Assembly (NCBI GenBank): GCA_001587595.1
Contig: LNJB01000001.1
Span: 101,213 to 143,105 of the forward strand
Direction: 5' to 3'
DNA: 41,893 bases
Source of the DNA: Candidatus Methanofastidiosum methylothiophilum
Lineage (GTDB): Archaea; Methanobacteriota_B; Thermococci; Methanofastidiosales; Methanofastidiosaceae
Shown: in pieces, positions 12,489-41,893 of the stretch
How the letters are laid out: each line of letters starts with the position of its first letter
Numbering within the stretch: the stretch's first letter is position 1
The notes under the pieces: model-generated
Told to the model about the DNA's origin: nothing
Databases searched by the model: none
The model's input: only the letters and a program-made list of their open reading frames with translations
Program-made: the position numbers and the translations under genes

Positions 12489-14117
12489 ATGTCAATGGGC
12501 ATTGCATTTGATATAGGCACAAGTGGATTTAGAGTCCAGCTTGTTGATTTAGAAACTAAAAAAGTATTGAGAACTGCAATTACATTAAGACACCCATTGC
12601 CTGGTGCTAATGTAATGGATCACCTTAACTTTGCTATTAGAGTTGGTGAAGACATAGCGCATAAATTAATGATTGATGCATTTGAAAGAATTTTAAGTCA
12701 AATGAGAATAGACCGTGAAACTATTGAAAGAATTGCCATTTGTGGTAATCCAATTCAGCTCTCTTTATTTGAGGGTATAAGTATCAAGGATTTGGCTTAT
12801 GCAGACCCCAAATACCTTGAGGCTGAAAAAATAAAGATTCAATCAAGAAATGCTAAGGTGATTTCTTCAAAAGATTTAGGTATCAGAGGAATTAACGCCG
12901 ATATTTTAATTCCGCCTGCAATAAAGCATGAAATTGGTGCAGATGCCCTTGCAATGATGTTGAAAAGTAATTTTTTAGATAATAAGGAAATTTCCTTAGT
13001 CACAGATTATGGAACAAATGCAGAAATGGCATTGAAAGTAGGGGATAAGATATTTACTGGCTCGGCAGCATCAGGCCCTGCACTTGAAGGCCAAGAAGTA
13101 TCTTGTGGAATGCTTGCTTCTCCAGGGGCAATTTCTGATATTGTCCTTGAGTTTGGATGGCATACATTGGTACTTGATGAGAATATGCTACCCCAAAGCG
13201 TTAGAGTTTTAGACCTATGGAAGGAAGAGTTTAGGGGAAAGAAATTATCTAATGTTGAAGTGAGAGGCATAACAGGTACTGGCGTAGTATCTGTAATTTA
13301 TGCAGGCCTTGAAACTGGAGTAATTGAACTTCCTTACATCTATACAAAAACTAAGAGATTGAGACTTGATGAGAATATTTATTTCACTGAAGAAGATCTC
13401 AAAGAAGCTGGAAAGGCAATTGGTGCTATCAGAGCTGGTCACCTTACTCTAGCCCAAGAGGCAGAGATACAACTTGAAGATGTTAAGACTATGTACATGT
13501 GTGGGGCATCAGGCACTTATGTCGATGCTACAAAATCAAGAAAAATAGGGCTTATTCCGCCCACAATACAAAAAGTATACCAAGTTGGGAATACTTCATT
13601 ACTCTTAGCTTTTGATGTTTTAGTTAAAAACTATACCTTAGAAGAATTGCAGAAACTTGCAGATAAAATTAGAAGTAAACATATTATGTTTGCAACTTCA
13701 AAAATATTCACTGATGTATATGTCCAAGAGCTTGCATATTGGGAGCAAGGAATGTCTTTTGAAAAATATAATGAAATGCTTGTCTTAAAAAATATTCAGA
13801 CTTTACCTCCTGTAAAGGGCGACTTAGAAGTCAATAAGATAGTTAAGAGAGATATCCCTGATATAGGTCAAGAATTAAAGGTAATTGATCATATTGGCGT
13901 TGAATTAGTTGCGGAATTTGAAAATTGTCAGGGTTGTGGAAAATGTGAAAGGGTATGCCCCGAAAGAGCTTTAAAGGTAGAAGCATTAAAAGGAGGGAAT
14001 TTCAAAATAAGAATATTATCTGAAAGATGTAATGGCGAAGCGTGTTTAAGGTGCCAATCTTCGTGCCCATATAAAGTATTTAAGTTTGAAAAGCTTACAG
14101 AATCAATTGATAGGTGA
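12489..14117 (+). CDS. RamA-like ASKHA ATPase, corrinoid-protein reductive activase
   Basis: This 542-residue protein has an N-terminal ASKHA (actin-like) ATPase fold: phosphate-1 motif IAFDIGTSGFRV at residues 5-16, VTDYGTNAEMAL near 171-182, and YMCGASGTYVDA near 336-347. The C-terminus carries two ferredoxin-type [4Fe-4S] motifs, C480, C483, C486, C490 and C514, C519, C522, C526. The length and the C-terminal cluster position match RamA of Methanosarcina. RamA uses ATP to reduce inactive Co(II) corrinoid proteins to Co(I) for methyltransferase reactions; bacterial RACo proteins carry their cluster at the other end. No corrinoid methyltransferase is in the window, so its client protein is unknown. 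The stop TGA overlaps the ribosome-binding site of the next gene. Confidence 0.85.
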   Translation: MSMGIAFDIGTSGFRVQLVDLETKKVLRTAITLRHPLPGANVMDHLNFAIRVGEDIAHKLMIDAFERILSQMRIDRETIERIAICGNPIQLSLFEGISIKDLAYADPKYLEAEKIKIQSRNAKVISSKDLGIRGINADILIPPAIKHEIGADALAMMLKSNFLDNKEISLVTDYGTNAEMALKVGDKIFTGSAASGPALEGQEVSCGMLASPGAISDIVLEFGWHTLVLDENMLPQSVRVLDLWKEEFRGKKLSNVEVRGITGTGVVSVIYAGLETGVIELPYIYTKTKRLRLDENIYFTEEDLKEAGKAIGAIRAGHLTLAQEAEIQLEDVKTMYMCGASGTYVDATKSRKIGLIPPTIQKVYQVGNTSLLLAFDVLVKNYTLEELQKLADKIRSKHIMFATSKIFTDVYVQELAYWEQGMSFEKYNEMLVLKNIQTLPPVKGDLEVNKIVKRDIPDIGQELKVIDHIGVELVAEFENCQGCGKCERVCPERALKVEALKGGNFKIRILSERCNGEACLRCQSSCPYKVFKFEKLTESIDR

Positions 14118-31951: not shown

Positions 31952-32716
31952 CTATTTATAGCCTATAAAGTTATTTTTATTTTTTAAAGAATTGAATTTA
32001 GTAAATTCTTTCGTATCTCCTTGAAAAATAATTGATCCCTTATCTAAAACGACTACCTTATCAGACATAAATTCGATTAAAGGTATGTTATGAGATATCA
32101 AAAGATATCCAAAATTATTTTCCTTTTGTAGATTATTCAAAAGTTCAAGTATCTGAGCCTGGACTGCAATATCCAGAGCTGAAGTTGGTTCATCCAAAAT
32201 AACATATTCTGGTTTTACTAAAAGTATTCTTGCAAGCGCCACTCTTTGATTTTGCCCTCCTGAAATTTGATGTGGGTATCTGCAAAAAATATCAGAGGAA
32301 AGCCCTACCCTATCAAGTAATTCAAGTATTAAGGATTCCCCTTTAAATACGTCCAATCCCATCAGATTTGCTGTTTCGTAAAGGGATTGTTTTATGGTTT
32401 TTTTCGGATTTAAAGATCCTTGAGAATCTTGGAAAACCATTTTAATTTTTTTCAAAGAGATATTCCTATCTTCTGAAGAAATATGCCATATATCAGTTCC
32501 TTCTATTAAAATTTTACCAGAGGTTGGCTTTTCCAATCCCATAATTATCTTTGCAAGTGTTGTTTTCCCTACACCAGATGGGCCTATCAAGCCAACTGTT
32601 TTTCCCTTTGTGATTTCTAAAGATATATCTGAAAGGATTTTATCATATCTTTTAGAAAATAATCCATAAGAATAAGATTTTGAAACACAATCAACGACTA
32701 CTGAAATAAGTAACAC
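31952..32716 (-). CDS. Opp/Dpp/Nik-type ABC transporter ATPase, second subunit (NikE/OppF-like)
   Basis: The 254-residue ATPase has Walker A GPSGVGKTTLAK near residue 43, a Q-loop in VFQDSQGSLNP, signature ISGGQNQRVALARIL, Walker B YVILDEPTSALD and a switch histidine in LLISHNIPLIEF. The SLNP after the Q-loop is typical of the oligopeptide/nickel subfamily. Its start is GTG 32714-32716, inside the end of the previous ATPase gene (19-bp overlap), with GGGGA upstream. It is the last gene of the importer operon. The substrate cannot be read from the ATPase; see the promoter and binding-protein entries for the nickel argument. Confidence 0.88.
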   Translation of the reverse strand: MLLISVVVDCVSKSYSYGLFSKRYDKILSDISLEITKGKTVGLIGPSGVGKTTLAKIIMGLEKPTSGKILIEGTDIWHISSEDRNISLKKIKMVFQDSQGSLNPKKTIKQSLYETANLMGLDVFKGESLILELLDRVGLSSDIFCRYPHQISGGQNQRVALARILLVKPEYVILDEPTSALDIAVQAQILELLNNLQKENNFGYLLISHNIPLIEFMSDKVVVLDKGSIIFQGDTKEFTKFNSLKNKNNFIGYK

Positions 32717-33636
32717 CTCACATCCCCTTCATCAATAGAATAAATAGGCGGTGTTTTTTCACTGCATATTTTCTTTTTATGTGGACATCTTGGATGAAAT
32801 TTACAGCCCTTTGGTATATTTACCATAGAGGGGGAATTACCTTTAGGGGGATTAAAACCTCTTTCAGGTAAACTATTTAAAAGAATCTTTGAGTATGGGT
32901 GAAGAGGGTTTTTAAAAAAAGACTCTGTTTTCGTAATTTCAACTATGTCCCCTGAATACATTATAATAATTCTATCAGATAATTCTCTTGCAATGGATAG
33001 ATCATGTGTTATTAGAAGAAGGGAAGAATTATTAATTTTATTTACAGTTTTAAACTCTTCAATTATATCTCTAACAAGTTCGTTGTCAAGACCTTTTGTT
33101 GGTTCATCTGCAATAATAATTGAAGGATTTAATGTCAAGGAAATAGAAAGAAGAACTCTCTGATTCATGCCCCCTGATAATTGGTGTGGATACATTCCGG
33201 TAAACTTTGAAGGATTTTGAAATCCCATTGTTTTTAACAATTTTTTTGTTTTGGTGAAAGCTTCTTTTTTATTTATTTTTTTGTGCACTAATAAGGGTTC
33301 TGAAATCTGATCGCCAATTTTGTATAAAGGATTTAAGGACAAAGTAGGATTTTGGAATATTATGGCTATTTCTTGCTGTCTTGTCTTTTCCATTTCACGA
33401 TCAGACATTTTTAATAAATTATTTCCTTTATAAAATATATTTCCAGAGATCTCTGCATTTTGAGGCAATAGCCTAATTATAGTATTTGCAATGACTGATT
33501 TACCACATCCTGTTTCGCCCACTAAAGCAAGTGTTTCATTAGCATTAAGGCTAAATGAAGCATTATTTACCGCATAAACTTCCCCGATTGGGGTAGTGAA
33601 CTTAACATTTAAATCTTGAATCTCTAGTATTTTCAT
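32698..33636 (-). CDS. Opp/Dpp/Nik-type ABC transporter ATPase, first subunit (NikD/OppD-like)
   Basis: The ATPase has about 312 residues. Walker A is GETGCGKSVIA near residue 40, the Q-loop is IIFQNPTLSLNP, the signature is LSGGMNQRVLLSISL, Walker B is IIIADEPTKGLD and the switch histidine is in LLITHDLS. The C-terminal oligopeptide-transporter extension has the usual cysteines (GCKFHPRCPHKKKICSEKTPP). The start is ATG 33634-33636, with GTGAT just upstream; the frame also opens at a TTG at 33648. It overlaps the second ATPase gene and lies 4 bp after the stop of the permease gene. Confidence 0.9.
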   Translation of the reverse strand: MKILEIQDLNVKFTTPIGEVYAVNNASFSLNANETLALVGETGCGKSVIANTIIRLLPQNAEISGNIFYKGNNLLKMSDREMEKTRQQEIAIIFQNPTLSLNPLYKIGDQISEPLLVHKKINKKEAFTKTKKLLKTMGFQNPSKFTGMYPHQLSGGMNQRVLLSISLTLNPSIIIADEPTKGLDNELVRDIIEEFKTVNKINNSSLLLITHDLSIARELSDRIIIMYSGDIVEITKTESFFKNPLHPYSKILLNSLPERGFNPPKGNSPSMVNIPKGCKFHPRCPHKKKICSEKTPPIYSIDEGDVRCYLFQ

Positions 33637-33640
33637 TCTA

Positions 33641-34489
33641 TCACTCAAGCCCCAATACTATATTCTCTTTCTCTTCAAGTGAGAATCCTATTAGCATAAG
33701 TGAGAAAACAACTGCAACTATGCATAATCCAGGCGGTAAATACCACCACCACATTTCATTGATAAGGCCTCCCTTCATAAATGCAAAATTAAGCATCATA
33801 CCCCAACTCTTCATAGTGGGATCTCCCAGGCCTAAAAAGGATATTGATGCTTCCGAAAACATTGCGGATGCTATTGTCAACATAAACTTTGGGATAATAA
33901 CATGATTAATATTTGGCAAAATCTCAGATAAAATAATATGTTTATCGCTAAAGCCTAATGATTTTACACTCAAAATAAAAGAGGCGTCTCTTATTTGCAT
34001 AGTTGAAGATCTTACAACTCTCGCTGTTGTAGGCCACCACAAGAAACCTATTAATAGCATTATTAACCAAAAATTAGGCCTCATTAATGCTGCCAGAATT
34101 ATAATGAGGGGTATTCTTGGGATCATTAAGTATATGTCTGTGATGGCCATAAGTATCTCATCCATCATGCCACGATAATAACCTGATACAATTCCAATAA
34201 TTACTCCTAATACAGTAGCAATGATAGATGCACCAAATCCAACTATTAAACTGACTCTAGCCCCAAATAATAATTCAGATAGAATATCATTACCCATATC
34301 ATTTGTTCCTAGAAAATGAGAGCTATTTGGTGGAATATATGGTTCAAATCTTATCCAAGGATTGTAAGGTGAAATTATTCCTGCTGCAATAGCTATGAAA
34401 AGAAAAAGTAAGAAAATAGTAATACCAATTGCATTAAGATTGAGCTTAGAAATTGCATACTTCTTAAGCTCTTCTATGTGATGGGTCAT
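33641..34489 (-). CDS. Opp/Dpp/Nik-type ABC transporter permease (NikC/OppC-like)
   Basis: The 282-residue permease has an N-terminal membrane helix (AIGITIFLLFLFIAIAAGII), then the FLGTNDMGNDILSELLFGARVSL segment typical of OppC/DppC/NikC, about five more helices, and the cytoplasmic EAA coupling loop (SVKSLGFSDKHIILSEILPN) that contacts the ATPases. The start ATG overlaps the stop of the other permease gene (ATGA). No feature by itself separates peptide from nickel transport. Confidence 0.9.
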   Translation of the reverse strand: MTHHIEELKKYAISKLNLNAIGITIFLLFLFIAIAAGIISPYNPWIRFEPYIPPNSSHFLGTNDMGNDILSELLFGARVSLIVGFGASIIATVLGVIIGIVSGYYRGMMDEILMAITDIYLMIPRIPLIIILAALMRPNFWLIMLLIGFLWWPTTARVVRSSTMQIRDASFILSVKSLGFSDKHIILSEILPNINHVIIPKFMLTIASAMFSEASISFLGLGDPTMKSWGMMLNFAFMKGGLINEMWWWYLPPGLCIVAVVFSLMLIGFSLEEKENIVLGLE

Positions 34490-35433
34490 ACAGAATCACT
34501 TATCCTTGGATCAATTATGCCATACAAAAAATCAACGAAGGCATTTGCTAAAACTGCCATTATACTAATAATCATAAAAGAACCATATAAAACTGGATAA
34601 TCTCTAGAAAGTAACGCCTCATAAATAAGATTCCCCATCCCGTTCATTGAGAAGATGATCTCAATAAACAATGCACCGCTTAAAATGAAACCAAAATCAA
34701 GAGCAAGTAGTGTTAAAAGTGGCAACGATGCATTCTTAAAAATATGTTTGAATAAAACTTGCCGATCAGACAATCCTTTTGCTTTTGCGTATACTACGTA
34801 AAGTTTAGATTTTTCTTGAATTACACTACCCCTCATAATCATGTAATTTCTTGAAGTAAGGAATATGGTCATTATACTTATTGGAAGGAAGAAGTGATGT
34901 AGTATATCTAAGATGCCTCCTGAGTAATAAAATCCTTTAATTGGAAATAATCCTAATTTAAAAGAGAATATATACAAAAATATGAGAGATAAGAAAAAAG
35001 TAGGTGTAGAATAAAAAGCCAATTCTATTAATGTAAGTGTTTTATAGGAATTTGAAGAAGATTTTTGTCCAGATATTGAACCCATTAAAGAGCCAAGTAT
35101 TGCACTAAACAATATTGAAGGTATCAGTAACAGTAATGTCCACTTCATTCTCGAAAGGATAATAGAAGACACCGGTCCTTTAAAATGATAAGAATACCCA
35201 AAGTCAAATCTAAATACGCCATTCCAATAATTAAGATACTGTATTGGAAGGGATTCATCAAGCCCCATTTTTTCTCTCAATTCTTGCAATGATTCTTCAG
35301 TCATGACATAATCTTCACCTAAAAGATTTGTGATAGGATCCCCAGGCATTAATCTAGGGATAATGAAATTTAAAGAAAAAATGACAAACAAGGCAATCAA
35401 GTAACGTGCTATTTTTTTTGAACGCATTTTCAT
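34486..35433 (-). CDS. Opp/Dpp/Nik-type ABC transporter permease (NikB/OppB-like)
   Basis: The permease has about 315 residues. Its first helix IARYLIALFVIFSLNFIIPRLMPGDPI ends in the MPGDP motif that marks OppB/DppB/NikB. It has about six helices, an EAA-type loop (AKAKGLSDRQVLFKHIFKNA), and a FSMNGMGNLIYEALLSRDYPV segment at the last helices. I chose ATG 35431-35433, preceded by AAGGGATT; the longer frame to 35490 only adds residues antisense-like in character and overlaps the methyltransferase gene. It lies 17 bp after the methyltransferase stop codon. Confidence 0.9.
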   Translation of the reverse strand: MKMRSKKIARYLIALFVIFSLNFIIPRLMPGDPITNLLGEDYVMTEESLQELREKMGLDESLPIQYLNYWNGVFRFDFGYSYHFKGPVSSIILSRMKWTLLLLIPSILFSAILGSLMGSISGQKSSSNSYKTLTLIELAFYSTPTFFLSLIFLYIFSFKLGLFPIKGFYYSGGILDILHHFFLPISIMTIFLTSRNYMIMRGSVIQEKSKLYVVYAKAKGLSDRQVLFKHIFKNASLPLLTLLALDFGFILSGALFIEIIFSMNGMGNLIYEALLSRDYPVLYGSFMIISIMAVLANAFVDFLYGIIDPRISDSV

Positions 35434-35450
35434 ATAATCCCTTTGTGAAT

Positions 35451-36227
35451 TTATTTTATTAAATATAACAAAGCATCTTTTCTTTGGCAAAGAACTTCAT
35501 AGAAATTTTGTTTTTTGATTAGCCTATTATTCTCATTTAAATAGTTGAATATTTCATCTTCTGTTTTTATTGAATATGGATACGATCTATACACAAAAGG
35601 TAAAGGAAGTTTGTAATCAGAAGTAAAAATCTCTACATTAAATATATATCCCATTTCAGATAATATATTGTAAAGATGTAAAAAATCTACAGAGTTTTTA
35701 TTATTATATACATATTCTCTCAAAGGGTCACCCCTCCCTGCCCTAAAAACTAAAAAAATGCCTTTTGTGGCCACATATATTAATTTTTCAAGAAAAGAGT
35801 AAATGTCATCTTCAAAGAAGCTGTATGCAGCAAGAGAGTAATCTACGTGCCCAATTTCGTATTTAGACACATTTTTCCATTCTTTCTCAATATACAAAAT
35901 ATTGTCACATTTATCGGCTTCCGCTTTAGACTTCAGGATACTAAGCTGATAAGGGGAAGGATCTAAAGCTATCAATTTATTGGATATTTTTGAAAGGGGT
36001 AATGCAAAAGCACCTGCTCCCGATCCAATATCAAGTAAAATGTCTTCGGGAAAAATAAAAGTAGATATCCTGTCTAATATTTTTCCAGGATATCCGGAAT
36101 ACTTCATGAGTTCATCGTAATAGTCCAAATTTTTCCAAAAATCGTTGTTAGAGATACCTTTTTCGTTTAGTATCTTTAGATAGCTTGATTCTTTAATTGA
36201 ACTATTCCACTCTTCCGACCAATTCAT
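35451..36227 (-). CDS. Class I SAM-dependent methyltransferase in the ABC importer operon
   Basis: The protein has 258 residues from ATG 36225-36227, which overlaps the stop codon of the binding-protein gene as TAATG. Motif I is LLDIGSGAGAFALPLS at about residues 64-79, followed by the acidic LIALDPSPYQL and a motif-IV-like HVDYSLAAYSFF. It is a class I Rossmann methyltransferase. The N-terminal 60 residues are charged and unassigned. Its position between the binding protein and the permeases, tightly coupled on both sides, suggests it acts on the transported compound or its carrier, for example a metal-chelating small molecule. The substrate is not known, and it does not look like nicotianamine synthase. 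Confidence 0.8.
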   Translation of the reverse strand: MNWSEEWNSSIKESSYLKILNEKGISNNDFWKNLDYYDELMKYSGYPGKILDRISTFIFPEDILLDIGSGAGAFALPLSKISNKLIALDPSPYQLSILKSKAEADKCDNILYIEKEWKNVSKYEIGHVDYSLAAYSFFEDDIYSFLEKLIYVATKGIFLVFRAGRGDPLREYVYNNKNSVDFLHLYNILSEMGYIFNVEIFTSDYKLPLPFVYRSYPYSIKTEDEIFNYLNENNRLIKKQNFYEVLCQRKDALLYLIK

Positions 36228-37816
36228 TATGATGCCTTCTGAAGATTTAAGAAAGTTTCTGTGTTGTAGATTCCAAACAAAGGATCTACATACCACCCGC
36301 TGAATTTTTTGCTATATGGGGTTATATTCTCGTTCCAGTAAAGTGTTATGCCGGGTAAATTATCCGAGTAGTAGTCTTGTAAATCATAAGCATATATTTT
36401 CAGTTTACCAGAATCAGTTGTAGATAAAATATTATCACATATTTTTAGAAATTCTGGATCACTAAGATTATGCAAGACTCCTTCTCCTGTTCTCCTTGAA
36501 TCAAAGTACCCTGATCCCCACTGTGCATGCATTAGCATTCCCCAAGGTGTTGTTCTTGTTATGGTGAGGTCATAATAATATTTGTCTTTTAAGGATATCC
36601 ATGTGCTTGAGTCAACGGATTTTAGAGTAGTTTCAATTCCTACTTTCTTTAGATAATCTTGTACTAACTCCCCAGAACGGACATATTCTGGACGGAGAAG
36701 CATAATAAGTTTAATATCCTTTCCGTCAGTAGTTTCTAAGATTCCATTCCCATTGCCATCCTTGTAACCTGCTTCATTGAGCAATTGTTTAGCTTTTTCT
36801 AAATTATACTCTAATTTAGGCGTTTCTTTATAAAACTCCATTGTAGGGGGGACAAATCCTCTATTTGGTGCTGTACCGTATCCTAATGCATCAATTTTAG
36901 CTATTTCGTCATAATTAATTGCGTAGGATATTGCATTTCTAAAGTTTACGTCAGACATTGGTTGTCTCTGTAAATTCATTCCAAGGAATATTAAGCCAAC
37001 ATTCATTTTTTTAATGGTAGCATATTTTCCGGTATCAATCAATTTTTGTATATTGGAATAAGGATAGCTGCCAGCGTATTTGTAATAAACATCTAAGGTT
37101 CCGTTTTCAAGATCTAGTGCTAATGCGTCGTTAGTTTTATACATATGAATTTCTATTGTATCTACAACTGATTGTTTTCCTTTCCAATAAGGATTTTTTT
37201 TCAAGGTTACTATCTGAGAATCTAGATTTACATTAGATATAAAAAACGGGCCGCATCCGACATAGTTATCAATTTGAATATAGTTCATAGGGTCTTGAAT
37301 TGATTCCCAAACATGTTTTGGAAGGATATTATAGGTGGTAAATTCTAGATTAGTTCTTGTGTATGGCTCAGTAAATAAAATTTCTACAGCATTTTCTTCA
37401 GGAATTACAGTAACAGCTTTAAGACGTTGTTTAATCCAACCTGCATAAGGTATTTTATTTGCATAGTATTCTACAGAGAATTTAACATCCTCTGGAGTTA
37501 CTTTTTTTCCGTCACTCCAATATAGCTCAGGATTAATATAAAACTTCCAGACTTTGTCATTATTTGATGCTTCGTATTTTGTTGCCATATTTCCTATAAT
37601 TTTTCCATTTTCATCCATTTTAGTTAGAGTCAAATTAGAAATCTTTGAGAAAACGCCTAAATTTGTATCAAAGAAATTTGCAGCTTTAATTGTATTCGGG
37701 CTTCCTATTTTTATGGTAGTAGTAGTAGTTTTTTCTGGTGTACCTTGATTTACGCATCCAACTATAAGAGAAATGCATAGTATGGACATTAATACAATAC
37801 TTAAACCTTTATTCAT
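36227..37816 (-). CDS. ABC transporter substrate-binding lipoprotein, family 5 (NikA/OppA-like)
   Basis: The 529-residue protein starts with a lipoprotein-type signal (LSIVLMSILCISLIVGC, lipid cysteine C21), then a threonine-rich linker and a family-5 binding-protein fold with the VWKFYINPELYWSDGKKVTPEDV segment near residue 85. Family 5 members bind peptides, nickel complexes, haem or metallophores. The likely role here is nickel or a nickel complex, because its promoter has the same paired GTGTTAC layout as the nickel-using cfb operon. This is inference, and a peptide role remains possible. The ATG is preceded by GGAGGTG. It leads the operon binding protein, methyltransferase, permease, permease, ATPase, ATPase. 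Confidence 0.88.
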   Translation of the reverse strand: MNKGLSIVLMSILCISLIVGCVNQGTPEKTTTTTIKIGSPNTIKAANFFDTNLGVFSKISNLTLTKMDENGKIIGNMATKYEASNNDKVWKFYINPELYWSDGKKVTPEDVKFSVEYYANKIPYAGWIKQRLKAVTVIPEENAVEILFTEPYTRTNLEFTTYNILPKHVWESIQDPMNYIQIDNYVGCGPFFISNVNLDSQIVTLKKNPYWKGKQSVVDTIEIHMYKTNDALALDLENGTLDVYYKYAGSYPYSNIQKLIDTGKYATIKKMNVGLIFLGMNLQRQPMSDVNFRNAISYAINYDEIAKIDALGYGTAPNRGFVPPTMEFYKETPKLEYNLEKAKQLLNEAGYKDGNGNGILETTDGKDIKLIMLLRPEYVRSGELVQDYLKKVGIETTLKSVDSSTWISLKDKYYYDLTITRTTPWGMLMHAQWGSGYFDSRRTGEGVLHNLSDPEFLKICDNILSTTDSGKLKIYAYDLQDYYSDNLPGITLYWNENITPYSKKFSGWYVDPLFGIYNTETFLNLQKAS

Positions 37817-37960: not shown

Positions 37961-38578
37961 ATGACATACGTGATTAGAAGTAGTGGAAAAAAGGAAGAAT
38001 TTGATGGAGACAAACTAATTGCTTCAATTATGGAGGCAGCAAATAATGCAGGCATAATGAATCAAATGGGTATTGAAGACCTCATCAAAAGTATTTCATC
38101 CAACACCATTTCTTATGCACGAACTCAAAAAGAAGTTCAATCAAAAACATTGAGTGATGTTATATTGGCCCAAATATTGAAAATAGGAATCCAAATGGCC
38201 ATGCAAAAATTTGGGGCCAATGTATCTAAAGAAAATATATTACATGAACTAATAAATGCAGGATTACAAATATCTAATCAAAATACACAGTCTAATGATC
38301 TTCTAAGTCAACTACTAAGTGCAAGTACAGCTAAAAGCTCATCACAATCTAACGATCTTCTAAGTCAACTACTAAGTGCAAGTACAGATAAAAGCTCATC
38401 ACAATCTAACGATCTTCTAAGTCAACTACTAAGTGCAAGTACAGATAAAAGCTCATCACAATCTAACGATCTTCTAAGTCAACTACTAAGTGCAAGTACA
38501 AGAAAAAATAGTTCAAATCAAGATCTGGGTGAAATGTTAATAGCCGGCATGAAACTAGCTAATGCTTTGATGAAATAG
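37961..38578 (+). CDS. ATP-cone domain protein with a 19-residue tandem repeat
   Basis: The 205-residue protein begins with an ATP-cone domain (YVIRSSGKKEEFDGDKLIASI... to about residue 90). This is the nucleotide-sensing module of ribonucleotide reductases and NrdR, here without either partner domain. Residues about 111-180 are a low-complexity tandem array of a 19-residue unit (SNDLLSQLLSASTDKSSSQ and near copies), then a short helical tail. The function is unknown; it may be a nucleotide-responsive scaffold or regulator. A TATA-like TTTTATATG stretch about 30 bp upstream of the ATG and the lack of a Shine-Dalgarno site suggest a leaderless transcript. Confidence 0.7.
   Translation: MTYVIRSSGKKEEFDGDKLIASIMEAANNAGIMNQMGIEDLIKSISSNTISYARTQKEVQSKTLSDVILAQILKIGIQMAMQKFGANVSKENILHELINAGLQISNQNTQSNDLLSQLLSASTAKSSSQSNDLLSQLLSASTDKSSSQSNDLLSQLLSASTDKSSSQSNDLLSQLLSASTRKNSSNQDLGEMLIAGMKLANALMK
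38291..38500 (+). repeat. 57-bp coding minisatellite (3 full copies plus a partial fourth)
   Basis: Copies begin at 38291, 38348, 38405 and 38462. The second and third are identical, the first differs from them at two bases (AAT/AAC and GCT/GAT codons), and the fourth keeps 39 bases before diverging. The period is a multiple of three, so gain or loss of a copy preserves the reading frame. The near identity at silent positions shows recent expansion. Confidence 0.95.
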
Positions 38579-38947: not shown

Positions 38948-39529
38948 TTATCTCATTATTTCTTTTCTTAAATATTTTCTCAAAAATCCATAGAGTTTTT
39001 TATCCCAGTTTAGAGGAGGATCTTTTTGTTCAGTTAGACTCATAATATATGAAATGGACTTTTTATCTAAAAGATATTCAAATTCTTTATTTTCAATAAA
39101 TCGATAAATTGCATTGAAAACAGGTGAAGGTAAGGGCACTTTTAATTTTGATAGTTTTAAGTTTGTAAGCATTAAAGATTTTTTTAAATATTCTTTTTCT
39201 TTGTACGAAAGTTTATGATAGTTTATTTCGTCATTTCTTTTTTCCCAGTCCATTTTCATTTTCTCTTTAAAAAGTTCTAAGGTGTTATTGAGTTTAGGCC
39301 ATCTTTCAGGATATTTAAGAAGTAATCTTTGTATTGGAAGTATATTTTCTTGAACTAAAATAACTCTCTTTTTTACTTCATCTATATTACTTTGAGAATA
39401 ATTCGCTTCATACGTATCAAGTTGTTTCATTAGCCACAAGTCTCTTCTTCCAGACATATTTTTATTTTTAGGAATTGATATTTTGGGAGTATTATTAATT
39501 ATTGGTTTAGTTTTATCTTCATTCGGCAT
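38948..39529 (-). CDS. Hypothetical helical protein
   Basis: The 193-residue protein is not recognised. Its first 35 residues are polar and disordered-looking, and the rest is rich in helical, basic and leucine-containing stretches (KKRVILVQENILPIQRLLLK, KMKMDWEKRNDEIN, LYGFLRKYLRKEIM). There is no signal peptide, membrane segment or cysteine cluster. The start ATG 39527-39529 lacks a Shine-Dalgarno site, and a TTTTTATATTTAA stretch about 30 bp upstream suggests a leaderless transcript. It is convergent with the coiled-coil gene and follows CooS by a 42-bp gap. The gene looks real from its length and codon pattern, but its function is unknown. Confidence 0.6.
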   Translation of the reverse strand: MPNEDKTKPIINNTPKISIPKNKNMSGRRDLWLMKQLDTYEANYSQSNIDEVKKRVILVQENILPIQRLLLKYPERWPKLNNTLELFKEKMKMDWEKRNDEINYHKLSYKEKEYLKKSLMLTNLKLSKLKVPLPSPVFNAIYRFIENKEFEYLLDKKSISYIMSLTEQKDPPLNWDKKLYGFLRKYLRKEIMR

Positions 39530-39571: not shown

Positions 39572-41476
39572 TTAAATGCCAAGTTTTTTTCTCTTTGATT
39601 CAATGTGAGAGAGCATTCCCTCAGCTGCTTTTACAGGATCTTTCTCAACATTTAATATTCCTCCAGTAACATCTTTGCAATCAACTGTCAAAAGTTTTAC
39701 TAAATTTGGGCCCCCAGTAACAGGAGGAACCGGATTTACATATGTATATAATCCAAATGCTAGGGCAAATATTGCATCTATAGTTGCTTTTTGTTCCATA
39801 TACTCTGGTGCAACTGCTACAACAGGTAAATCTTTTACAGATACATCCCCTAAAGCTTTTGAGATTACTCCAATTAGATCTGCAAGTCTACCAACATCAG
39901 TACAAGTTCCATAACTTAGCACAGGAGGTGTGTTTAAAATACTACATAATTTTTTTAATCCTGGTCCAGCTAAATCTTTAGCTTCTAGGCTACATAATCC
40001 ACCTACTTGCACAGCACTGTTTCCGCAACCTAAAGACAAAACTAATATATCTCTCTTGATCAACTCTTTAACTATTCTTATTGTATGAACATCTTGGCCA
40101 GAATCTCTTAAAGAAGTGCAAGAAACCATTCCTGCTACTCCCCTTATCGTCCCATCCTTTATTGCATTTAGAAGTGGCTCAATTGTTCCTCCTAAAGTTT
40201 CAACTATACTTTCAGTAGAGAATCCAACTATTGCCTCTTTTATTGGAAATCCTAAAACAGGCTTAATTGAGCTTCTTCTTTCTTTGAAGTTATCGATTGC
40301 CATCTGCAATAATGATGCAGCTTGAATCTCTGCTTCTTCTGGTAAATAGTTTATCCTTTCTTTAATACCTTCAAATGCCACAACTTCGCTTACAGGTATT
40401 AATTTGAATTTGTATTTTTCTGCATATATGGGATCAATTGGCATGGAACAATTCATATCTGCCACAAAAATGTCTATACATCCGCTTGCCATTATCGCTT
40501 CTTGCATTATCCAATTTCCTGTAAATCCGTAGAAAACATCATCCATCTCCCATCTTTGGATCATCTCTTGGCCCGTTTCAATATTTGCAATTATCCTAAG
40601 GCCTTTGGCCCCAACTTTTTTGGCTTTCTGTTGCCATTCTTCTTTTCTCGCAAGTTGAATCATTGCAAAACCCAAAAAAGGTTCATGCCCATTAGGTATG
40701 ACGTTTACATAATCTGGATCCAATACACCTAGGTCGACTCTCATTTTATGTGGTCTTGGTATTCCAAAAAGAATATCTTGTGAAAATTCATTAATAATCT
40801 GGCTTTGGTAAGCCATTGCTATTCCAAGTCTCATTGCTTTTAATGCTAAGCTTACATAATATCCATCAACATTAGTAAGACAAGAACTTGTAGAGAGCAT
40901 TATCTCTCCATGAATCCCTCCAGGAAATATCCCAATTTTCTTCCATGAATCTTTTCTTTCTTTTGGGGCTAATAACTCTACAATTTTACTTGGTTCGGAG
41001 TATTTTCTGTTAAAATCATCTTCAACAAAGTCACAGAAATCCAATGCTATTTCTTTAATGTTACCTTTAGAATCTATTCCAAGTCTTTCAGCAAATGATT
41101 TCAGTTTAGAAGATTCTTTTATTTGAAAAGGAGTTTCTCCCTTTGCCGTTGCTCTAAGAGTTTTTATTGTTTGCTCAGTATGGTATTGGTAAGTTGATGC
41201 ACCTAATACATTTCTTAGGAGCATCATTCTCATTGCCATACCATCTGCAGTAATTCCACAAGCTCCTCTTTTATCAATCGATGCATCAGAGCGGCATGGA
41301 CCGTTTGAACAAAGATCGCACCTTGTTCCTCCTTGGCAAAAAGGACATCTTTTATCAGGATCACCAGCGAATCCTTGAGACTCGTACCTATCCCATATGT
41401 TTGTTATTTTATCCTCTTTGATTTTTTCATACATTTTTTTTACAGATTCATGATATGATATTCTATCTCCTTCCAT
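39572..41476 (-). CDS. cooS: Anaerobic Ni-CO dehydrogenase catalytic subunit (CooS-like), with a variant C-cluster
   Basis: The 634-residue protein is a homologue of CooS, which oxidises CO reversibly at a [Ni-4Fe-4S] C-cluster. N-terminal cysteines for the B and D clusters are at C44, C47, C53, C56, C61 and C73. Of the six C-cluster ligands of the well-studied CODH-II, five align with H264, C343, C453, C484 and C525. The position equivalent to C295 aligns with glutamate E300 (IANIETGQE, where others have GICCTGNE). K563 matches the conserved acid-base lysine. The activity is therefore uncertain. No CooF, CooC or acetyl-CoA synthase subunit is visible. The start ATG has GAGGA upstream and a TATA box at 41501-41512. 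Confidence 0.92.
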   Translation of the reverse strand: MEGDRISYHESVKKMYEKIKEDKITNIWDRYESQGFAGDPDKRCPFCQGGTRCDLCSNGPCRSDASIDKRGACGITADGMAMRMMLLRNVLGASTYQYHTEQTIKTLRATAKGETPFQIKESSKLKSFAERLGIDSKGNIKEIALDFCDFVEDDFNRKYSEPSKIVELLAPKERKDSWKKIGIFPGGIHGEIMLSTSSCLTNVDGYYVSLALKAMRLGIAMAYQSQIINEFSQDILFGIPRPHKMRVDLGVLDPDYVNVIPNGHEPFLGFAMIQLARKEEWQQKAKKVGAKGLRIIANIETGQEMIQRWEMDDVFYGFTGNWIMQEAIMASGCIDIFVADMNCSMPIDPIYAEKYKFKLIPVSEVVAFEGIKERINYLPEEAEIQAASLLQMAIDNFKERRSSIKPVLGFPIKEAIVGFSTESIVETLGGTIEPLLNAIKDGTIRGVAGMVSCTSLRDSGQDVHTIRIVKELIKRDILVLSLGCGNSAVQVGGLCSLEAKDLAGPGLKKLCSILNTPPVLSYGTCTDVGRLADLIGVISKALGDVSVKDLPVVAVAPEYMEQKATIDAIFALAFGLYTYVNPVPPVTGGPNLVKLLTVDCKDVTGGILNVEKDPVKAAEGMLSHIESKRKKLGI

Positions 41477-41541: not shown

Positions 41542-41853
41542 TTAGTCTGTTAATCCTAGTAGTATTGCTAGGTTATCTTTGGCTTTCAAAGAATGTGGAG
41601 CATTTTTAGGCATGAAAATAAATACTCCTGGAGCCATATCAATTTCTTCATCACCTAGCTTAAAAGTACCTGTTCCTTTTAGAACTTGTACTATCCCCGC
41701 TTTTGTTGAGGTATGTGTATCTATGTTTGTACCTGAAGATAGGCACATTAATGTATAGTTATACGTTTTTGACATTGCCAAAACTGTACTAAAAATGCCT
41801 TCTGTCGGAAATTGCATTGTTTTATTCAAATCTTTCCAAAATCCTTTTTCCAT
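41542..41853 (-). CDS. Small cupin-domain protein
   Basis: The product is about 103 residues and a single-domain cupin. Recognisable stretches are LMCLSSGTNIDTHTSTKAGIVQVLKGTGTF (motif 1, with H in DTHTS) and VFIFMPKNAPHSLKA (motif 2 with H). Only two clear metal-ligand histidines are seen, so the site may be incomplete or use other residues. Small cupins act as metal-binding enzymes, sugar isomerases or sensors; no role can be given. The start is ATG 41851-41853 with a strong GGAGGAG upstream; a GTG at 41862 is the alternative. The ATG overlaps the stop of the gene cut by the window edge. Confidence 0.8.
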   Translation of the reverse strand: MEKGFWKDLNKTMQFPTEGIFSTVLAMSKTYNYTLMCLSSGTNIDTHTSTKAGIVQVLKGTGTFKLGDEEIDMAPGVFIFMPKNAPHSLKAKDNLAILLGLTD

Positions 41854-41893
41854 TATATCCACTCCTCCGTTAGCACTTCTCCATTTAATCCAA
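41853..41893 (-). CDS. C-terminal end of an unidentified gene (cut by window edge)
   Basis: A frame entering from the right edge ends at TAA 41853-41855 and overlaps the cupin ATG as TAATG, the same coupling seen at other junctions here. Only about 12 residues are visible (GLNGEVLTEEWI). They cannot identify the protein. The overlap is the main reason to think this is a real upstream gene. Confidence 0.4.
   Translation of the reverse strand, partial: GLNGEVLTEEWI

Follow-up and report, generated by a model that had tools for sequence, protein, structure and literature searches.

The window analysed here, a stretch of 41,893 nucleotides from Candidatus Methanofastidiosum methylothiophilum, carries a gene for a CooS-type protein of 634 aa (39572..41476, minus strand) that, judged by sequence, is a member of the known CooS-V/D-1 branch of the CODH-HCP superfamily. 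Our best reading is that the protein would act as an HCP-like reductase that deals with nitrogen oxides or related stress, with the substrate presumed. For the group as a whole, we lean towards the view that the D-1 'CO dehydrogenases' are a second, CODH-shaped HCP that replaces hcp, with the same FrdX donor, a cupin and NO/redox-responsive regulators; in Ca. Methanofastidiosum it would be the sole enzyme of the superfamily and would serve in defence against nitrosative or related stress.

Glu300 in place of a C-cluster ligand

The window protein (structural group D-1, CooS-V-like) scores above the TIGR01702 cut-off with 732 bits, matches PF03063 with 466 bits and has 7b7q as its best PDB match. 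A sequence-only reading had placed a glutamate at 40577-40579 in the position of the ligand Cys295, with the other five C-cluster ligands and Lys563 kept, and both claims hold. The minus strand over 40609-40550 reads att gca aat att GAA acg ggc caa gag, where GAA (40579-40577) encodes residue 300 of the 634-aa ORF. In the phmmer alignment against the PDB, Glu300 pairs with Glu295 of CooS-V (7b7q) with no gaps nearby; in alignments with Cys-type CODHs, its counterpart in the C-C-T/S-x-N-E segment is the second Cys. A residue check found His264, Cys343, Cys453, Cys484, Cys525 and Lys563 all present. Three additional changes, absent from the sequence-only reading, accompany Glu300. The first is Cys47, the second Cys of the D-cluster motif Cys44-x2-Cys47 (41336..41347, minus strand), where the Cys-type CODHs read have Gly; the motif is of type III, which holds a [2Fe-2S] cluster in CooS-V (PMC6344411 and PMC9311411). 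The second is Tyr96, which replaces the acid-base His of Cys-type CODHs, and the third is Glu561, two residues N-terminal to Lys563, in a site (39788..39796, minus strand) that was compared with the vulgaris HCP, its roles being taken from PMC9311411 and PMC6344411. With Glu300 the protein lacks the complete C-cluster ligand set that includes Cys295, and with Tyr96 it lacks the acid-base His of a functional Ni,Fe-CO dehydrogenase.

A scan of a genome collection found at least 390 relatives; the 80 with the best scores were kept as named loci. The peptide patterns used for the scan included the Glu561 segment and excluded the Glu300 segment, so that Glu300 was not directly selected for, though only the best 80 of at least 390 were kept. 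All of these best 80 of at least 390 carry the D-1 residues, including Glu, at 72-99% identity, as do, for Glu, all 8 Glu-type loci of the genus and order (L017-L023 and the window's own L001). Glu300 is thus not a single-genome error: the codon and the same Glu in 80 of 80 relatives (best 80 of at least 390) rule out a misalignment or frameshift, and the relatives likewise rule out a one-off mutation.

Membership in the D-1/CooS-V branch

Among solved structures, the nearest is that of Carboxydothermus hydrogenoformans CooS-V (7b7q, 691 bits by phmmer), with CODH-II entries at about 280 bits. An AlphaFold2 model of the window protein (mean pLDDT 81, pTM 0.86; residues ~38-72 poorly predicted) gave 7b9a/7b7q as the best Foldseek matches, at TM 0.93-0.94 and 49-50% identity, with Cys-type CODHs at TM 0.84-0.92. 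The window protein has the same residues as CooS-V at 17 of 17 checked positions, unlike 18 Cys-type CODHs and one truncated sequence. In a 34-sequence tree that left out D-2, D-3 and D-4 sequences, CooS-V joins the window group and a second copy from Methanoperedens (L150) in a single clade (FastTree support 0.995-1.0), which is separate from the Cys-type CODHs and from five HCPs and within which the window group and CooS-V are distinct sublineages. Both tree and structure therefore place the protein with CooS-V and apart from Cys-type CODHs. They also group it with CODHs rather than with HCPs, whose domain order and length of ~540 aa it does not share.

In PMC6344411, D-1 of clade D is characterised by a type III D cluster, the ligands H-E-C-C-C-C, Tyr, Lys and a Glu equivalent to HCP Glu494, and the window protein has every listed D-1 residue (Glu for Cys295, the CX2C D cluster, Tyr, Lys and Glu two before Lys). 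CooS-V is reported to have Glu295 and a redox-morphing [4Fe-3S-nO] hybrid cluster without Ni, and neither to oxidise CO nor to reduce CO2; a C295E variant of CODH-II is Ni-deficient and inactive with CO (PMC9311411). According to the same paper, Cys295-to-Glu is a derived trait that the CooS-V subclade has in common, and PMC9311411 and PMC10502027 disagree on the direction of the Cys/Glu change. The suggestion that the substitution may mark a CODH subclade with an altered metal site or a non-CO activity was therefore right in kind, but that subclade has already been published (PMC6344411, PMC9311411). Since the Cys295-to-Glu substitution is already known, the finding as first put forward is not new, and an undescribed CODH clade is rejected, the best PDB match having the same Glu. 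Nor is this a known active CO dehydrogenase with the glutamate, an outcome that the sequence-only reading had named as counting against it: the only group member that PMC9311411 assayed, CooS-V, shows no activity with CO.

Relatives and host genomes

The best 80 of at least 390 relatives come from archaea (Methanofastidiosia, Thermoplasmata, Asgard lineages, Methanosarcinaceae, Methanoperedenaceae, Methanophagales and Bathyarchaeota) and further from WOR-3, Chloroflexi, Actinomycetota and Deltaproteobacteria. Those at 99% and 89% identity belong to Ca. Methanofastidiosia / Ca. Methanofastidiosum methylothiophilum. Within the genus, 7 of 10 genomes have a PF03063 gene, the sole one in each of the seven, and three have none. 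In G004 and G008 the gene lies in two non-overlapping pieces, and Glu300 was read in six of the seven carriers, all except G004. The marker mcrA was found in 9 of the 10 genomes and CdhC (ACS) in 0 of 10; the window's own genome (87% complete) has no CdhC or second CODH, a context that is common for functional CODHs, though not strictly required. Taken together, the distribution of mcrA and CdhC and the lack of a second PF03063 gene make a role of the D-1 protein in acetyl-CoA synthesis or CO-based methanogenesis of the genus unlikely.

PF03063 and partner genes were searched for in 50 of the 80 named genomes. Thirteen of these 50 D-1 genomes have no other PF03063 gene (four of the 13 are 'chromosome' records; most are draft MAGs), and the label 'CooS' is therefore not safely read as CO metabolism. 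PMC9311411 states that genes of the CooS-V type are found only alongside other CODH genes; this 50-genome sample, made up mostly of draft MAGs, does not bear that out.

An operon across the window edge

Reading across the edge of the window (G000:C1:138000-150000, L111) gave, on one strand, the order [4Fe-4S] partner, cupin, CooS and a 193-aa ORF. The partner gene encodes 277 aa at 41853..42686 (minus strand; converted from L111 5066-5899), so that only its last 41 bases (41853..41893) fall in the window; it starts 793 bases past the window end. Its last 10 bases overlap the start of a small cupin gene (Cupin_2, GTG start; 41542..41862, minus strand), which is upstream of and co-directional with the CooS gene and has adjacent co-directional relatives in other loci. 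The N-terminus of the partner is a double [4Fe-4S] ferredoxin domain (Pfam Fer4 families, scored on the near-identical L031 gene). The earlier remark that cooF/cooC genes are not seen is true inside the window, but a co-directional [4Fe-4S] partner gene stands across its edge, and a verdict of 'no partner genes' would be right within the window and wrong past it. Divergent from the partner gene and 76 bases from it lies an HxlR-type regulator (42763-43128 in window numbering, beyond the edge), with PF01638 on the L031 copy and a below-cut-off similarity to the redox-sensing RrpA/RrpB. Full-length partner and HxlR both occur in each of the 7 carriers in the genus, and in none of its 3 non-carriers.

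The 193-aa ORF, which has no family (38948..39529, minus strand; 42 bases downstream of the CooS gene), was rejected as a conserved partner, its relatives being found in same-genus loci only. A peptide/nickel-type ABC transporter at 31952-37816 (minus strand; substrate-binding protein PF00496, NikA-like models below cut-off) was rejected as a Ni feeder because a plus-strand gene at 37961-38578 intervenes, so that transporter and CooS gene are not one operon. The 205-aa product of this intervening gene has an ATP-cone at its N-terminus and four near-identical repeat copies around 'QSNDLLSQLLSAST'. Amid the transporter genes, in a stretch of which only some ORFs were scanned, lies a methyltransferase-like ORF. 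Elsewhere in the window, 12489-14117 (plus strand) encodes a RACo-type reductive activator of corrinoid proteins (PF14574, PF17651), which fits a methyl-dependent methanogen.

A partner family shared by D-1 and hcp loci

We call the partner FrdX-like, a label that comes from a gene arrangement. One Roseburia plasmid is annotated with hcp, a Crp/Fnr regulator and a 4Fe-4S binding protein in that order, the last of which belongs to the partner family (37% identity over 279 aa); this is of the hcp - hcpR - frdX kind described in PMC545781, PMC1274295 and PMC12915319. C. difficile becomes sensitive to NO when frdX or hcp is knocked down (PMC12915319). An Acetoanaerobium record with a member of the partner family (L152, NZ_CP154629) showed no hcp in the 8.7 kb read; it is filed as a plasmid in PLSDB, and its size of 2.6 Mb suggests a chromosome.

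Among the best 80 of at least 390 D-1 loci, 24 have a partner-family gene at most four genes from D-1, co-directional in 24 of 24 (p 1e-7). Flanks of at least 1.5 kb on both sides are available for 60 of these best 80 of at least 390, and 19 of the 60 have the partner. Two thirds of the best 80 of at least 390 show no partner within four genes, some of the contigs being short. A gene of the same family immediately follows true hcp in 5 of the 12 class I-type loci read, all from Deltaproteobacteria (E ~1e-90 to 1e-98), and in 0 of 4 Thermococcus class III loci read.

Further support for the linkage is provided by the 50 genomes, in which a partner gene lies within 5 kb of 19 of 51 D-1 genes (18 co-directional) and 6 of 12 hcp genes (6 co-directional), as against 0 of 36 Cys-type CODH, long-frame CODH or CdhA genes (Fisher p 1.6e-6, uncorrected for relatedness among loci that are not independent). 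The 56 partner rows, minus 11 second pieces of split genes, gave 45 partner genes, of which 13 are on contigs without a PF03063 gene; in G015 and G012 the partner gene adjoins neither D-1 nor hcp. Left out of the linkage count were five untyped PF03063 fragments, short second Cdh pieces and a few other small pieces. The PF03063 types were set by frame length and score; 12 single Cys-type CODHs, three long-frame CODHs, two hcp and one D-1 were read residue by residue, and the 21 CdhA went unread. One Methanoperedenaceae genome (L150, G133:C98; L058) has two D-1 proteins, one of the window type and one of the CooS-V type, with an FrdX-like gene 1.4 kb from the CooS-V-type copy (L150) on the opposite strand.

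Regulators, cupins and other neighbours

Proteins 53-59% identical to the window-type HxlR (116 aa) are divergent from true hcp in three archaeal genomes, G012, G017 and G116. The first two belong to the same taxonomic order as the window, and there the HxlR is the sole match at E 1e-5 in each genome; in G116, a MAG from Thermoplasmata, D-1 with an FrdX-like partner is present as well. The HxlR link with D-1 is seen in one genus only. In G019, the HxlR gene lies at a contig end. Rrf2-family regulators are found directly upstream of D-1 or one gene further in 8 of the best 80 of at least 390 loci; the four tested all passed the Rrf2 superfamily cut-off and did not pass the specific NsrR/IscR cut-offs.

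By profile, an adjacent co-directional cupin occurs in 10 of the best 80 of at least 390 D-1 loci (L031, L032, L037, L040, L041, L048, L050, L064, L104 and L109, the last with a more distant type), and none was found beside the true hcp loci read. Cupins that may or may not be related to the window cupin are reported from Desulfovibrio hcp operons: Ddes_1828 accompanies hcp Ddes_1829, with strong induction by NO (PMC5701242), and a 'cupin 2' gene is named in a figure legend of PMC4287179. Flavodiiron proteins lie at most four genes from D-1 in 5 of the best 80 of at least 390 loci, and G017 has one above the NO-reductase flavorubredoxin cut-off, convergent with D-1. The 136 adjacent genes that passed the length and distance limits were scanned and include eight rubredoxin-reductase-like and three rubredoxin domains.

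Other arrangements were seen in parts of the set. In L114 (G015:C22, 5134-8861), a locus of a sister family, D-1 is directly behind two MinD-like ATPases with ferredoxin inserts, ~10 bases apart; the MinD-like names come from reading the sequence, and the arrangement may be chance. An E1-E2 (P-type) metal ATPase follows or is near D-1 in L044, L055, L057, L066, L099 and L100 (Methanolobus, Methanomethylovorans and relatives). The lokiarchaeal D-1 loci (L040, L041, L042, L070, L078, L079, L080, L084 and L092) have in common a wider neighbourhood of redox genes, named from their sequences as flavodoxin-like reductase, dihydrolipoamide-dehydrogenase-like and glutaredoxin-like.

Proposed function and alternatives

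The window locus has the hcp-type genomic module, with an FrdX-type partner and a related regulator, and we think it probable that the D-1 protein does the job of a hybrid cluster protein, using electrons from the partner to reduce a nitrogen oxide or related oxidant at a hybrid cluster. The protein would form a CODH-type homodimer that contains B clusters and, as its D cluster, a [2Fe-2S] centre. The redox-morphing [4Fe-3S-nO] cluster shown for CooS-V is expected here from the identity of all ligands, because Glu300 and Glu561 join His264 and Cys343/453/484/525. The dedicated FrdX-type [4Fe-4S] protein, encoded two genes upstream, would donate electrons, which may enter via the B/D clusters, and the hybrid cluster would then reduce a small nitrogen-oxide or related oxidant, presumably NO, hydroxylamine or a reactive by-product. 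Stress would be sensed by the divergent HxlR, which would switch the operon FrdX-like [4Fe-4S] protein - cupin - CooS(D-1).

Against an HCP-like job stand the assays of CooS-V, which reduces hydroxylamine slowly (kcat 0.13 s-1), shows no NO reduction above background and has potentials ~300 mV below E. coli HCP, its authors suggesting a physiology other than HCP's (PMC9311411). CooS-V was assayed without its physiological donor, reduced methyl viologen being used for hydroxylamine, and the missing partner is therefore a possible reason for the weak activity. The low potentials and undetected NO reduction are also what an alternative reading draws on, namely that the same module serves a low-potential reductase for substrates other than nitrogen oxides, such as reactive oxygen or sulfur species. 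Consistent with this are the rubredoxin-reductase-like and rubredoxin domains among the adjacent genes, but the partner family, HxlR and (in papers) cupin are neighbours of NO-responsive hcp genes (PMC5701242, PMC12915319), and we regard this alternative as unlikely. Restructuring of the CooS-V cluster on redox change (PMC9311411), and the regulators that adjoin D-1 in some loci, could instead point to a redox sensor or regulatory protein that is not a catalyst, as proposed for clade D (PMC13056359). This we consider quite improbable, as the catalytic and electron-transfer ligands are invariant in all of the best 80 of at least 390 loci across many phyla, and a dedicated electron-transfer partner that hcp has too is a better fit for an enzyme that turns over. 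That the protein is a true CO dehydrogenase, or scavenges CO, with an altered C-cluster is very hard to credit: the CODH scaffold, Lys563, five of six C-cluster ligands, the TIGR01702 score and the report that CooS proteins of M. acetivorans help remove CO (PMC4652020) speak for it, but CooS-V (50% identical, same ligands) has no Ni and is inactive with CO and CO2 (PMC9311411), CODH-II C295E is likewise Ni-deficient and CO-inactive (PMC9311411), Tyr stands at the acid-base His, and the host genus is without CdhC or another PF03063 gene. The report concerns two CooS proteins of Methanosarcina acetivorans (Rother 2007, as cited in PMC4652020 and PMC6344411), from a genus reported to carry D-1 genes, and PMC6344411 counts it as possible CO oxidation by D-1. 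It also speaks against the HCP-like job, as do the little or mild effect of deleting a clade D gene in Clostridium autoethanogenum (Liew 2016, cited in PMC13056359), the D-1 loci that lack the partner within four genes and the restriction of the HxlR link to one genus.

Recent work sees no clear genomic context for clade D and notes that a role in stress still lacks proof (PMC13056359). The tie between a large, uniform D-1 sublineage and the [4Fe-4S] partner family of hcp supplies a concrete donor to test, and in one genus the tie to an HxlR regulator of the hcp kind supplies a concrete inducer. A 'CooS' found in methylotrophic methanogens, Asgard archaea or WOR-3 calls for caution before CO metabolism is deduced. 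We found no link of D-1 with an FrdX-type partner, cupin or HxlR in the literature searched; subscription papers and supplements were outside its scope, so this negative is weak evidence of novelty, and the association of D-1 with FrdX, cupin and HxlR may be new. The excerpts of PMC6344411 and PMC13056359 make no mention of the cupin, partner or HxlR of the window operon. Within the same literature, HCP with HxlR gave no result, Methanofastidiosum with CO dehydrogenase and Methanofastidiosales with hybrid cluster gave nothing relevant, and CooS with cupin and frdX with CODH led to Desulfovibrio papers that tie hcp to cupin or frdX, none of them on D-1.

Comparison with known systems

CooS-V is nearest to the window protein in both sequence (50%) and fold, and shares with it Glu for Cys295, Glu two before Lys563, the [2Fe-2S]-type D-cluster Cys and Tyr for the acid-base His. 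The window protein differs in belonging to a separate, far more uniform sublineage (72-99% identity in the best 80 of at least 390) and in being encoded by the only PF03063 gene in its genus, whereas CooS-V occurs with four true CODHs and an HCP in the same organism (PMC9311411). It has all the residues listed for D-1 (PMC6344411; clade D in PMC13056359), but the neighbours given in those excerpts, COG1063 and HypA/HypB, are not those found at the window locus. CODH-II has the scaffold in common with the window protein, and also Lys563 and five of the six C-cluster ligands; as read on its Cys-type relatives, it differs in that the window protein has Glu for Cys295, Tyr for His93, Glu for the Ser/Thr/Ala before x-Lys and another type of D cluster.

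With class I hcp that has frdX, the window gene shares the superfamily, the [4Fe-4S] partner family and a closely related HxlR regulator, and the His, four Cys and Glu before Lys align. It differs in the CODH fold and dimer, the D cluster and a length of ~630 aa as against about 540-545. The HCP ligand Glu268, which we take to sit in YTHGEM, aligns by sequence with Glu304 of the window protein and not with Glu300, and Glu300 is therefore rejected as its counterpart. The same is reported for CODH-V in PMC10502027. Overall these comparisons indicate that the window protein is D-1/CooS-V by membership, with all testable features present, and not an HCP by fold, while its mode of working is most likely HCP-like.
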